This document shows positions 14,099 to 18,646 of a stretch of DNA of 64,000 nucleotides, piece after piece. This DNA comes from Pseudomonadota bacterium (GTDB lineage Bacteria; Pseudomonadota; Alphaproteobacteria; Rhizobiales; JAKPQE01). The notes under the pieces were generated by a model, which saw nothing but the letters and a program-made list of their open reading frames with translations, did no database searches and was not told the DNA's origin. Each line of letters begins with the position of its first letter. The first letter of the stretch is position 1. Both the position numbers and the translations under genes were made by a program. Where the stretch lies: the NCBI GenBank assembly GCA_029572955.1, contig JAKPQE010000078.1:62001-126000 (forward strand), in the 5' to 3' direction.

Positions 14099-14173
14099 GG
14101 GCGCGTAGCTCAGCGGGAGAGCACTTCGTTCACACCGAAGGGGTCACTGGTTCAATCCCAGTCGCGCCCACCA
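14099..14173 (+). tRNA. tRNA-Val (anticodon CAC)
   Basis: Cloverleaf read by eye: acceptor GGGCGCG pairs with CGCGCCC, the D-arm is GCTCAGCGGGAGAGC, the anticodon stem is CTTCG/CGAAG with loop TTCACAC (anticodon CAC, reading GUG), and the T-arm is GGTTCAATCC. The 3' CCA is encoded in the DNA. A repeat cluster begins 31 nt after its end, and tRNA 3' ends are common sites for element insertion. Confidence 0.95.
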
Positions 14174-14203
14174 TTTCGCCAGCAAGGCGAAATGCTTGGT
14201 TTT

Positions 14204-14565: not shown

Positions 14566-14769
14566 ATGGCGATCGACCGCATGGTCATGGCTGTTGCCGG
14601 CCTCTTCATCCTTCTCTCTCTCGCCCTGTCGCAGGTGCACAGCATCTACTGGCTGTGGTTCACCGCGTTCGTCGGCGCCAATCTCCTGCAGGCCTCCTTC
14701 TCGGGCTTCTGCCCGATGGTGATGATCCTGAAGAAGTTCGGCTTCAAGCCCGGCGCCGCGTTCAACTGA
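14566..14769 (+). CDS. DUF2892 (YgaP transmembrane-domain-like) protein
   Basis: A 67-residue membrane protein with two hydrophobic helices (about residues 7-22 and 28-45) and the FSGFCPMVMILKKFGFKPG tail of DUF2892. In E. coli the same fold anchors the rhodanese YgaP; here it stands alone. GGAG precedes the ATG. The next gene starts 20 nt later and encodes an exported c-type cytochrome, so the two may be co-transcribed and act at the inner membrane/periplasm. Confidence 0.85.
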   Translation: MAIDRMVMAVAGLFILLSLALSQVHSIYWLWFTAFVGANLLQASFSGFCPMVMILKKFGFKPGAAFN

Positions 14770-14789: not shown

Positions 14790-15398
14790 ATGAGGTCCAT
14801 GCTGAAGGCCGTGCTCGGCGCGGCCGCTTTCGTCGTTGCCACCGGCACGACGCTCGCCGATGACCGCCAGATGGTCGATCTGCCCGAGCCGATGCGCGAG
14901 ATGTTCCTGGCCGAAATGCGCGGCCATCTCGCCGATCTCGACGACGTCGTCGCGGCGCTTGCCGCCGGCGACTTCAAGGCGGCCGCCCAGCTCGCCGAGG
15001 AGCGCATGCAGATCGGCCACCGGATGGTCGAGCGCATGCAGGGCATGGGCGCGACGCCGGAACAGATCGCCGAGATGCGCAAGCACATGGCCCAGATGCG
15101 CGAGCAGATGGGTGGCATGGGCGGCGGCATGGGTATGGGCATGGGCGGCGGCATGGGCATGGGTGGTATGGGCATGGGTGGTATGGGCATGGGCGGCGGA
15201 ATGGGCTTCGGCCGGTTCATGCCGGAAGAGTTCCGTGCCCTCGGCATGCTCTTCCACCAGGCGGCCGACGATTTCGCCAGGACCGCACGCGCCGCCGCCG
15301 AGCCGCCGACGCCGGACGACTACAAGGCGGCGATGGGTGCCCTCGGCGCGATCACGGTCGCCTGCCGCGGCTGCCACGACGCGTTCCGGGTGCGCTGA
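14790..15398 (+). CDS. exported cytochrome c'-like protein with Gly/Met repeat insert
   Basis: A 202-residue exported protein. A signal peptide (residues 1 to about 23, ending LADD) is followed by helical segments. Residues ~107-139 are almost only Gly and Met in GMG-type repeats, then two more helices. Near the C-terminus is CRGCH, a c-type heme site placed as in cytochrome c'/c556 four-helix bundles. The likely state is a periplasmic monoheme cytochrome whose central loop is a methionine-rich arm; such arms can bind Cu(I) or Ag(I), but that is inference. It lies directly after the DUF2892 gene. Confidence 0.7.
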   Translation: MRSMLKAVLGAAAFVVATGTTLADDRQMVDLPEPMREMFLAEMRGHLADLDDVVAALAAGDFKAAAQLAEERMQIGHRMVERMQGMGATPEQIAEMRKHMAQMREQMGGMGGGMGMGMGGGMGMGGMGMGGMGMGGGMGFGRFMPEEFRALGMLFHQAADDFARTARAAAEPPTPDDYKAAMGALGAITVACRGCHDAFRVR

Positions 15399-15627: not shown

Positions 15628-17076
15628 ATGTTCGACATCCGACCGGTCGCCTTCGTCGTCGGCGCCTTCATCTGCACCCTCGCGCCGCTGCTTCTGATTT
15701 GCGCGGTCGTCGATCTGGCCGCCGACAATCCGGACTGGATGGTGTTCGTCGGCTCGGCGATGGTGACGTTCGCCTTCGGTTCGCTGCTCACCCTTGCGAC
15801 CCGGGCCGAAAACCTCGAATTCGACATCCGCCACGGCTTCCTTTTGACCATCGCGGTGTGGGTGGCGATCTGTCTCGTCGGCGCCATCCCGTTCTATTTC
15901 GCGGCGGCCAAGCCGAGCATCGCCGACGCCGTCTTCGAATCGACCTCCGGCATCACCTCGACCGGCGCGACGGTGCTCAGCGACCTCGATCACATGCCCC
16001 CGGGGATCCTCATGTGGCGGGCCCTCCTGCAGTGGATCGGCGGCCTCGGCATCGTCGCCACCGCGCTGCTCATCTTCCCGTTCCTGCAGGTCAGCGGGAT
16101 GCAGCTCTTCAAGCTCGAATCATCGGATGTCGGCGAGAAGCTGTCGCCCCGCATCGCCGACACGACGCGGCAGATCACCCTCCTCTACGTCGCGCTGACG
16201 GTGCTGACGACGGTCGCCCTGATCGCCGCCGGCCTCAGGCCTTTCGATGCCGTGTGCCACGCGATGACCGGGGTGGCGACCGGCGGCTTTGCGACCCACG
16301 ACAGCTCGATCGGCTATTTCGGCAACCGGGCGGTCGAGGCGATCCTGCTCGTCGCGATGATCGCCGGCAGCCTGACACTCACCCTGGTGCTGCGGGCCGT
16401 GGCGGGGCGACCGGGCGCCCTGTTGCGCGATCCGCAGACGCGACTTTTCTTCGTTTCGATCGGCGTCGCCGTGGTCACGATCACCACCTGGCGCATCCTC
16501 ACCTCCGAGGTCGAGCCGCTGCAGGCGCTGTGGGGCACGCTCTTTTCCGTCGTCGCGATCATGACGACGACCGGTTTCGTCCTCGAGGACCACGCGACCT
16601 GGGGGGCGCTGCCGGTCGCCGCCTTCTTCGTCATCATCTTCATGGGCGGCTGCACCGGATCGACGGCCGGCGGCCTCAAGGCCTACCGGCTCTACGTGCT
16701 TCTGGTCGCGACCGCCTACCATTTCCGCATGCTGTTGCACCCGCACCGGGTGACGGCGCTGCGCTATGGCGAGATGCGCCTCGACGACGAGGTGGTGCGC
16801 TCGGTGATGACCTTCGTGCTGCTCTACATGGCGAGCTTCGTCGTCATCGCCGGCGGGCTGTCGGCCACCGGGCTCGACTTCCTTACCAGCCTTTCCGGCG
16901 CGGCCCAGGCGATCGCCAATGTGGGCCCCGGACTCGGCGACATCATCGGCCCGGCCGGCAACTTCTCGACGCTGAGCGATGCGGCCAAATGGATCATTTC
17001 GGCCGGAATGTTGCTCGGGCGTCTGGAGATCATCGCCGTCGTCATGGTATTTACCCCCGCGTTCTGGCGGGTATGA
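15628..17076 (+). CDS. trkH: TrkH family potassium uptake protein, copy 1
   Basis: Channel-like subunit of the Trk potassium uptake system in the inner membrane, 482 residues. The four pore-loop repeats are visible: SGITSTGATVL, GVATGGFATHD, TTTGFVLED and ANVGPGLGDI, each with the conserved filter glycine. It normally works with the NAD-binding regulator TrkA, which is not in this window. ATG 15628 matches the start of copy 2 exactly (MFD-RPVAFVVGAF). The frame continues 24 codons upstream without similarity. Followed 121 nt later by a close paralogue. Confidence 0.93.
   Translation: MFDIRPVAFVVGAFICTLAPLLLICAVVDLAADNPDWMVFVGSAMVTFAFGSLLTLATRAENLEFDIRHGFLLTIAVWVAICLVGAIPFYFAAAKPSIADAVFESTSGITSTGATVLSDLDHMPPGILMWRALLQWIGGLGIVATALLIFPFLQVSGMQLFKLESSDVGEKLSPRIADTTRQITLLYVALTVLTTVALIAAGLRPFDAVCHAMTGVATGGFATHDSSIGYFGNRAVEAILLVAMIAGSLTLTLVLRAVAGRPGALLRDPQTRLFFVSIGVAVVTITTWRILTSEVEPLQALWGTLFSVVAIMTTTGFVLEDHATWGALPVAAFFVIIFMGGCTGSTAGGLKAYRLYVLLVATAYHFRMLLHPHRVTALRYGEMRLDDEVVRSVMTFVLLYMASFVVIAGGLSATGLDFLTSLSGAAQAIANVGPGLGDIIGPAGNFSTLSDAAKWIISAGMLLGRLEIIAVVMVFTPAFWRV
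16012..16121 (+). repeat. 110-bp block identical to 17582-17691
   Basis: Within the first trkH gene, 110 consecutive bases match the second trkH gene at every position, synonymous sites included, while flanking sequence differs every few codons. This looks like recent gene conversion between the tandem copies. It encodes MWRALLQWIGG and the helix that follows. Confidence 0.85.
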
Positions 17077-17197: not shown

Positions 17198-18646
17198 ATG
17201 TTCGATGTCCGACCGGTCGCCTTCGTCGTCGGTGCATTCATCTGCACCCTGGCGCCGCTTCTCCTGATCTGCGCCGTCGTCGACCTCGCCGCCGACAATC
17301 CCGACTGGCACGTGTTCGTCGGCTCGGCCCTCGTGATCTTCGCCTTCGGTTCGCTGATGGCGCTGGCCACCCGGGCGGAGCGGCTCGAATTCGACATCCG
17401 CCAGGGCTTCCTTCTGACCGTCGCGGTGTGGGTGGCGATGGGCCTCGTCGGCGCCGTGCCGCTCTATTTCGCCTCCTCCAAGATCGGCGTCGCCGACGCG
17501 ATCTTCGAATCGATCTCCGGCATCACCACCACCGGCTCGACCGTGCTCGTCGACCTCGACCACATGCCGCCGGGGATCCTGATGTGGCGGGCCCTCCTGC
17601 AGTGGATCGGCGGCCTCGGCATCGTCGCCACCGCGCTGCTCATCTTCCCGTTCCTGCAGGTCAGCGGGATGCAGCTCTTCAAGCTCGAATCGTCCGATGT
17701 CGGCGACAAGTTCTCGGCCCGCATCGCCGACACGGCGCGCCAGATCATGCTGCTCTACGTGTTGCTGACGGTGCTGACCGCGGTCGGCCTCATCGCCGTC
17801 GGCCTCAAGCCGTTCGATGCGGTCTGCCACGCGATGACGGCGCTCTCGACCGGTGGCTTCGGCACGCGCGACAGTTCGGTCGGCTATTTCGGCAGCATCG
17901 CGGTCGAGGCGATCCTCGTCGTCGCCATGATCGCCGGCAGCCTGACGCTCACCCTCGTCCTGCGGGCCGTCGCCGGCCATCCGCGCCCGCTGCTGCGCGA
18001 TCCGCAGACGCAGCTCTTCTTCGCCGTCATCGGCATAGCGGCCATCGTGCTGACGATCTGGCGCGTCGCCACCTCGGACACCCTGCCCGGCCCGGCGCTG
18101 TGGTCCTCGGTCTTCAGCGTCGTCTCGATCATCACGACGACCGGCTTCGTCACCGAGGACTACTCGACCTGGGGGGCGCTGCCGGTCGCCGCCTTCTTCG
18201 TCATCACCTTCATGGGCGGCTGCACCGGCTCGACGGCCGGCGGCCTCAAGTTCTACCGCCTCTATGTGCTGCTGATCGCCACGGCCAACCATTTCCGCAT
18301 GCTGCTCCACCCGCATCGCATCGCGCTCCTGCGCTATGGCGACAAGCGCCTCGACGACGAGGTGGTGCGCTCGGTGACGACCTTCGTCCTGCTCTACATG
18401 GCGAGCTTCGTCGTCATCGCCGGCGGGCTTTCGGTCACCGGCCTCGACCTCGTGACCAGCCTTTCCGGCTCGGCCCAGGCGATCGCCAATGTCGGCCCGG
18501 GCCTCGGCGACATCATCGGCCCGGCCGGCAACTTCTCGACGCTGAGCGATTCGGCGAAATTCATCCTTGCGGCGGGCATGCTGCTCGGCCGCCTCGAGAT
18601 CGTCGCGGTGGTAATGGTGTTCACGCCGGCGTTCTGGCGCGCCTGA
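17198..18646 (+). CDS. trkH: TrkH family potassium uptake protein, copy 2
   Basis: A second TrkH of exactly 482 residues, collinear with copy 1 and roughly 80% identical by eye. Pore loops are SGITTTGSTVL, ALSTGGFGTRD, TTTGFVTED and ANVGPGLGDI. Differences cluster in the N-terminal third and between pore loops 2 and 3, so the copies may differ in affinity or regulation. No frameshift or stop: both copies look functional. The 121-nt spacer after copy 1 shows no clear terminator. Confidence 0.93.
   Translation: MFDVRPVAFVVGAFICTLAPLLLICAVVDLAADNPDWHVFVGSALVIFAFGSLMALATRAERLEFDIRQGFLLTVAVWVAMGLVGAVPLYFASSKIGVADAIFESISGITTTGSTVLVDLDHMPPGILMWRALLQWIGGLGIVATALLIFPFLQVSGMQLFKLESSDVGDKFSARIADTARQIMLLYVLLTVLTAVGLIAVGLKPFDAVCHAMTALSTGGFGTRDSSVGYFGSIAVEAILVVAMIAGSLTLTLVLRAVAGHPRPLLRDPQTQLFFAVIGIAAIVLTIWRVATSDTLPGPALWSSVFSVVSIITTTGFVTEDYSTWGALPVAAFFVITFMGGCTGSTAGGLKFYRLYVLLIATANHFRMLLHPHRIALLRYGDKRLDDEVVRSVTTFVLLYMASFVVIAGGLSVTGLDLVTSLSGSAQAIANVGPGLGDIIGPAGNFSTLSDSAKFILAAGMLLGRLEIVAVVMVFTPAFWRA
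17582..17691 (+). repeat. 110-bp block identical to 16012-16121
   Basis: Partner of the identical block in the first trkH gene, located at the same place in the second gene. Confidence 0.85.

Follow-up and report, generated by a model that had tools for sequence, protein, structure and literature searches.

A 64 kb stretch of alphaproteobacterial DNA, referred to here as the window, carries at positions 14790–15398 of the forward strand a gene whose product is, by its sequence relationships, a divergent class II c-type cytochrome with an inserted loop of glycine and methionine. The cytochrome itself is a new variant of class II c-type cytochromes; the methionine theme around it is more surprising. 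The arm is not a single-gene oddity, for the theme recurs on unrelated cytochromes and on a nearly pure Met-Ser-Gly protein heading a conserved molybdenum (Mo) reductase operon. We read the window protein as a c556-like carrier with a His/Met-ligated heme, beside which the arm would cycle between methionine and methionine sulfoxide (MetO), and we give this reading as a whole a probability of about 0.4. A thioether arm on a heme protein would be an unusual means of placing redox or metal chemistry next to an electron carrier. Should the Met/MetO chemistry be true, methionine outside the cytoplasm would serve as a currency of respiration or protection; should copper or silver be involved instead, the arm would be a large soft-metal store coupled to electron transfer.

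The cytochrome family and its insert

The gene is a single open frame of 202 codons plus a stop that lies inside the coordinates. One long frame and a conserved family rule out an artefact or a wrong frame; the opposite strand is open over the gene as well, but this frame encodes His/Ala low complexity and was set aside as a shadow. By inspection of the translation, the N-terminus reads as a putative signal peptide (residues 1–23, 14790–14858), with a hydrophobic stretch followed by TLA ahead of Asp24, and the structural model has low confidence there. We infer from the sequence that the protein is exported to the periplasm. Its heme attachment motif, CRGCH, occupies residues 192–196 (15363–15377), and since CcmE is encoded in the same genome, heme attachment is possible.

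Family membership rests on several comparisons. Against the Pfam model for cytochrome c' (PF01322) the window protein scores 23.0 bits, below the cut-off of 26.5. Two homologues do pass it, L061 with 30.7 bits and L064 with 27.3, and a 13-row family profile (A1) matches solved cytochrome c' chains in the PDB with a best E-value of 4.5e-5, which together argue for a divergent class II c-type cytochrome. Like other members of this class (c', c556; PF01322), the window protein has a lone CxxCH near the C-terminus and a start that resembles an export signal, and its model shows a four-helix arrangement. It differs in its Pfam score, in some 60 extra residues that separate helix B from helix C, in a conserved D-x-R motif before helix A, in a conserved histidine of helix C and in the Gly/Met loop itself. 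The same genome also encodes a class II cytochrome of canonical type (109 bits).

When 101 genomes, its own and 100 relatives, were searched with the window protein, 17 gave a match at an E-value of 1e-3 or better. Profile A1 found matches in 38 of 397 genomes of the order, and a profile made mostly of long forms (A3) in 8 of 385 genomes of the class. Contig scans returned no relatives with the window protein alone and 11 loci with a 5-row alignment, among them Rhodospira trueperi, Rhodobium orientis, Rhodomicrobium sp. Az07 and uncultured alphaproteobacteria. The plasmid search gave no match to the window protein and, with a short form as query, one hit in 72,556 records. This hit (L105), a distant short form annotated as hypothetical on plasmid pSULKU02 of Sulfuricurvum kujiense, lies near genes for DsrE, rhodanese and thioredoxin. 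In the open-licence PMC literature searched, whose coverage is limited, we found no description of a Gly/Met-looped cytochrome or of the M-[S/G]-G triplet protein discussed below. The preliminary description had stated that no described family has this build; this holds for the papers searched, but shorter Gly/Met-loop relatives do occur in several alphaproteobacteria, such as Rhodospira trueperi.

An AlphaFold2 model of the window protein, built with 12 sequences, has a mean predicted local distance difference test (pLDDT) score of 84.3 and places helices at residues 33–58, 62–72, 77–85, 90–111, 146–167 and 175–198. The model of a short homologue, L071 (141 residues, pLDDT 89.8), retains the four core helices but lacks the insert, so that in the window protein the insert lies between helices B and C. 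It consists of two parts, a helical hairpin (residues 77–111, 15018–15122) that is missing from short forms such as L071, and the Gly/Met arm that follows it. The hairpin starts at His77, a residue that all 16 homologues with a long insert share. Within the arm, residues 113–115 and 124–136 have pLDDT values below 50, and the arm is predicted to be disordered. The best Foldseek matches of both models are cytochromes c', with E-values of 0.12 for the window protein and 0.009 for L071.

The arm contains a pure Gly/Met run of 33 residues (107–139, 15108–15206), 21 of them glycine and 12 methionine, with neither histidine nor cysteine. Outside the run these two residues account for 17% of the protein, and the window has no second Gly/Met run of six or more residues in any of its six frames. 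At the DNA level the run is an imperfect repeat with overlapping arrays of periods 6, 15 and 24, in which glycine is encoded by 14 GGC, 6 GGT and 1 GGA codons. This is the longest pure run among the homologues compared. Gly/Met-rich loops stand at the same position in homologues of much lower overall identity, which argues for more than chance. The preliminary description, with its c-type heme site in a helical, cytochrome c'-like architecture and its roughly 33 central residues of almost only glycine and methionine, is borne out in these respects, as is its view of the repeat as an insertion, judged against homologues; the signal peptide that it names agrees with the N-terminus as read by inspection.

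The 47 distinct homologues compared, one of which is the window protein itself, were collected with a pattern that required D/E-x-R, CxxCH and a methionine at one of several allowed positions, and this builds in part of the invariance of these residues. An insert of 35–75 residues is found in 16 of the 47 and is absent from the other 31. In 11 of the 16 the loop is at least half glycine plus methionine, and nine of these hold three or more methionines. Judged by these sequences, the insert is a family trait and not peculiar to the window protein. In a tree of the family its state switches a minimum of two times, and the window protein stands beside short Rhodomicrobium-type forms (support 92/87, the branch not starred). 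This position makes it likely that the insert was lost among these short forms or gained twice.

Such a history could also be that of a passive flexible spacer, or of a largely neutral GGC-ATG repeat expansion tolerated in a surface loop. Low model confidence over the tract, repetitive DNA, a freely varying length, the absence of the whole insert from two thirds of the set (31 of 47) and the two changes of state, with the window protein among short forms, would all fit. Yet the tract is still rich in methionine in homologues only 36–53% identical to the window protein, and methionine is an odd choice for a mere linker. We regard a passive arm as doubtful, though it deserves serious consideration.

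Methionine-rich proteins beyond the window

Across the genome of the window organism the pattern MxGMxGM, as DNA ATGNNNGGNATGNNNGGNATG, occurs 202 times, against none for a reversed control. Its median in 60 relatives is 3, and the highest counts are 105, 30, 19 and 10. The first of the 202 matches were located, and a large share of the excess belongs to one exported-looking protein of 363 residues, the Met-triplet protein.

Two cytochromes of the same genome carry comparable tracts. One is class II-like with a CVQCH motif and has a Met/Gly/Ser arm immediately behind its signal-like start (L180:374–1051, forward strand, contig G000:C100); it first surfaced as a weak own-genome match (L002), and no full-length match to it was found in 100 relatives. 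A search with this protein exposed the second, which looks membrane-anchored and has two class I cytochrome domains (PF00034) joined by a Met/Gly/Ser linker (L181:4393–5562, reverse strand, contig G000:C130). G001, a genome from the family of the window genome that has no match to the window protein, carries Met/Gly tracts on three proteins (loci L210, L176 and L200): a SoxA-like cytochrome of the SoxA/TsdA type has a long N-terminal Met/Gly/Gln arm, a NapC/multiheme cytochrome a Met/Gly patch and a PCuAC copper chaperone a C-terminal Met/Gly/His tail.

Some further tracts were seen in passing. Short M-x-G tracts occur at two more loci of the own genome, L182 (G000:C2) and L179 (G000:C7), in a protein that by eye resembles Sel1 repeats and in one with a weak MgtE_N match. 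At L185:4492–5592 (reverse strand, G038:C117) a run of M-H-G triplets precedes what by eye is a phosphatase- or haloperoxidase-like stretch, and two of the triplet-like matches (L112, L114) are, again by eye, chaperonins. The C-terminal GGM tail of GroEL shares the Gly/Met low complexity of the window loop; however, it is the tail of a cytoplasmic chaperonin, while the window loop belongs to an exported-looking heme protein.

The Met-triplet protein of the own genome (L178:5756–6847, reverse strand, contig G000:C7) contains 103 methionines in its 363 residues and 96 M-x-G triplets of the form M-[S/G]-G, together with two W-x-C-T-Q-W motifs. It passes the Pfam collagen model (31.3 bits against a cut-off of 27.2) because glycine stands at every third residue. 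Its 65 serine codons comprise 45 TCN and 20 AGY, so the triplets are not simple copies of each other; this exceeds what slippage alone would give and speaks against a neutral expansion of such repeats. A search for G-W-x-C-T-Q-W in the 397 genomes of the order matched eight, two of which lack the triplets and are chance hits. A seventh locus, on a plasmid of Rhodobacter xanthinilyticus, was found through the Mo subunit (82% identical); the triplet protein there is annotated as a hypothetical protein. Since the operon is present in this cultured organism, either chemistry of the arm would be testable there.

At all seven loci (L178, L184, L196, L197, L198, L199 and L218:11088–11822, the last on the reverse strand) the same genes follow each other on one strand: triplet protein, multiheme cytochrome c, molybdopterin oxidoreductase and 4Fe-4S protein. 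The triplet gene is cut by the start or end of a contig at L196, L198 and L199, and a TorD-like chaperone or a histidine kinase lies further on at several loci. The Mo subunit is accompanied by a TorD-like chaperone and by a partner that resembles DmsB. The multiheme cytochrome has an additional class I cytochrome domain at two or more of the seven loci, among them those of G347 and Rhodobacter xanthinilyticus; the cytochrome of G347 is related to the Met-linked one of the own genome (54% over 100 residues).

Exported Met-rich proteins paired with a molybdenum-type S-oxide reductase are familiar from the oxidant scavengers MrpX/MsrX and BcrX. The triplet operon differs from these in its M-[S/G]-G repeat, its enzyme of the dimethyl sulfoxide (DMSO)/selenate reductase family and its cytochromes. 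The periplasmic Mo enzyme DorA of R. sphaeroides belongs to the same superfamily and is reported to reduce protein-bound MetO (PMC7402097). Unlike DorA, the Mo enzyme of the operon, a candidate MetO reductase, is nearer to DmsA/YnfE and is joined by a multiheme cytochrome and an Fe-S partner.

The window cytochrome family is found in five of the six triplet-protein genomes, as compared with 38 of 397 overall. The hypergeometric probability is 3.5e-5, or 3.1e-4 without the own genome, on the assumption that both scans covered the same 397 genomes and uncorrected for relatedness, G023 and G394 being of one genus. What co-occurs is the class II family and not the Gly/Met loop, as only short forms were seen in G013, G082 and G394. 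A cytochrome-rich lifestyle common to these genomes may explain the association. A further-reaching idea, which we hold to be improbable, is an undescribed periplasmic methionine redox system, in which triplet proteins and Met-armed c-type cytochromes, the window protein among them, would swap electrons and oxygen through Met/MetO, with the Mo enzyme and the multiheme cytochrome as dedicated reductase. Protein-bound MetO would then act either as a reserve of electron acceptor or as a shield against oxidants that can be renewed.

Heme ligation and the role of the arm

A hidden Markov model made from the 47 sequences and run on all open frames of the fetched loci returned 48 distinct members; the search itself did not impose the pattern by which its training set had been gathered. 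The preliminary description had tied its heme assignment to conservation of CxxCH, and this motif is present in 48 of 48 members, to be read with the CxxCH-selected training set in mind. Equally constant (48 of 48) is Met43 in helix A (14916–14918), the predicted sixth heme ligand, while His156 in helix C (15255–15257) is found in 47 of 48. A conserved D-x-R stands ahead of helix A.

The ranges aligned by VIA-align 2 have as end points model residue 32 with residue 5 of Alcaligenes cytochrome c', residue 31 with residue 4 of 1bbh and 3vrc, residue 36 with residue 25 of 6r6n, and residue 37 with residue 1 of b562-type chains. If helix A is followed without a gap, Met43 falls on residues 16 (Alcaligenes), 16 (1bbh and 3vrc), 32 (6r6n) and 7 (b562-type). 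Leu16 of the Alcaligenes protein and Cys32 of 6r6n and 6r6o are mutated sites by their entry titles. We take Leu16, Cys32 of 6r6n and Tyr16 of 1bbh to be distal residues, and Met7 of b562 to be an axial ligand. This register suggests a six-coordinate heme with His196 and Met43 as ligands, and an invariant methionine aligned with the distal residue would make the protein a c556-like His/Met electron carrier rather than a gas-binding cytochrome c'.

Cytochrome c' proper was set aside as the leading reading on account of Met43. In this alternative the heme would be five-coordinate and bind nitric oxide (NO) or carbon monoxide, with the arm as an accessory. Cytochromes c' are indeed the nearest solved cytochromes in both sequence and fold, and the related complex NaxLS of Kuenenia is described as NO-binding (PMC11897245). 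The invariant distal-position methionine and the score below the Pfam cut-off both stand against it, and we consider it very improbable. Of the likeness to cytochrome c' proposed in the preliminary description, the architecture is supported, but membership in the strict sense is not.

For the c556-like reading, the heme would be bound through Cys192 and Cys195 with His196 and Met43 as axial ligands, and the protein would move single electrons in the periplasm. The arm would be a flexible, exposed thioether surface that is oxidised to MetO and then re-reduced, which is the weakest step, and would serve as an oxidant sink or as a redox-tuned arm beside the heme. This chemistry would be common to the other Met-armed cytochromes and to the Met-triplet protein, whose operon holds an enzyme of the DMSO reductase family. 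As a precedent, a periplasmic DMSO reductase is reported to be able to reduce MetO within proteins (PMC7402097).

Several observations weigh against this picture. The evidence for MetO chemistry comes from another protein, and the window holds nothing that would tie the cytochrome gene to S-oxide reduction. The Mo subunit of the triplet operon is nearest to DmsA/YnfE (TIGR02166) with 603.3 bits, below the cut-off of 777.7, and the Gly/Met loop follows another pattern than the M-[S/G]-G triplets. Heme attachment and a His/Met spectrum are predictions from sequence and model. The register of Met43 derives from end points of alignment ranges and not from residue pairs, the alignment to the c556-like protein of the own genome covers the C-terminal 22 residues only, and the VIA-align 2 Z scores of 9.4–10.5 against cytochromes c' lie in a range, 9–11, that is common among helical bundles.

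The arm could instead bind Cu(I) or Ag(I) by thioether sulfur, perhaps with His77 and the Met and His residues of the hairpin, so that soft-metal binding or detoxification would be added to electron transfer; the preliminary description had likewise suggested pairing electron transfer with copper or silver binding. The 12 methionines of the loop would be joined by an HxM (His77 to Met79) and an MxxH (Met95 to His98) in the hairpin, and the His/Met motifs of SilE are reported to bind Ag+ and PcoE to bind Cu+ (PMC5008109). Metal-related company also occurs elsewhere: the PCuAC copper chaperone of G001 ends in a Met/Gly/His-rich tail, and next to one homologue (L095) lies a gene whose product has both an HMA domain and DsbD_2. 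Yet the run lacks His and Cys, the hairpin methionines differ among homologues, and no copper gene is common to the clustered neighbourhoods, the window gene itself being flanked by a YgaP-like gene and two TrkH genes. The comparison with SilE and PcoE cuts both ways. These metal sponges are disordered, Met-rich and periplasmic (PMC5008109), as is predicted for the arm; unlike them, the arm is a loop of a heme protein without histidine in its run, and its gene lies outside a silver or copper operon, among TetR, tRNA-Val, YgaP-like and TrkH genes. On balance we hold metal binding to be unlikely, if still a real contender.

Genomic surroundings

Immediately upstream of the cytochrome gene, on the same strand and ending 20 nucleotides before its start, lies a gene for a small membrane protein of 67 residues (14566–14769) of the YgaP-like transmembrane family (PF11127; 49.5 bits, cut-off 25.3). 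It is a possible operon partner, but at the homologue loci examined no YgaP-like gene adjoins the cytochrome, so that the pairing is seen beside the window gene only. A second YgaP-like gene exists elsewhere in the genome. Also upstream are a TetR gene and a tRNA-Val (14099–14173). Downstream follow two TrkH-type potassium transporter genes in tandem on the forward strand (15628–17076 and 17198–18646), whose products are 81.7% identical over 481 residues. Genes for an extracytoplasmic function sigma factor or a methionine sulfoxide reductase, as in systems of the MrpX/BcrX type, are not found next to the window gene.

Clustering of the open reading frames around the window gene and 31 loci revealed no conserved partner of the long-insert forms; only the cytochrome itself was widely common. 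No copper gene was common to these neighbourhoods, in which not every neighbour is annotated. A Crp-like gene lies near seven short-form loci (L086, L087, L088, L090, L092, L093 and L094), and the one of these genes that was checked has a cNMP_binding domain, which suggests that short forms may be regulated by a signal through the Crp-like gene. An RND permease occurs near L068, L100 and L103, where L068 and L103 are probably from one genome, and Hsp20/DUF1150 genes near L067, L087 and L099. In the window itself, past the tRNA-Val, a unit reading about gatctcacggcagttcgcttcgctcac recurs by eye several times between positions 14185 and 14450.
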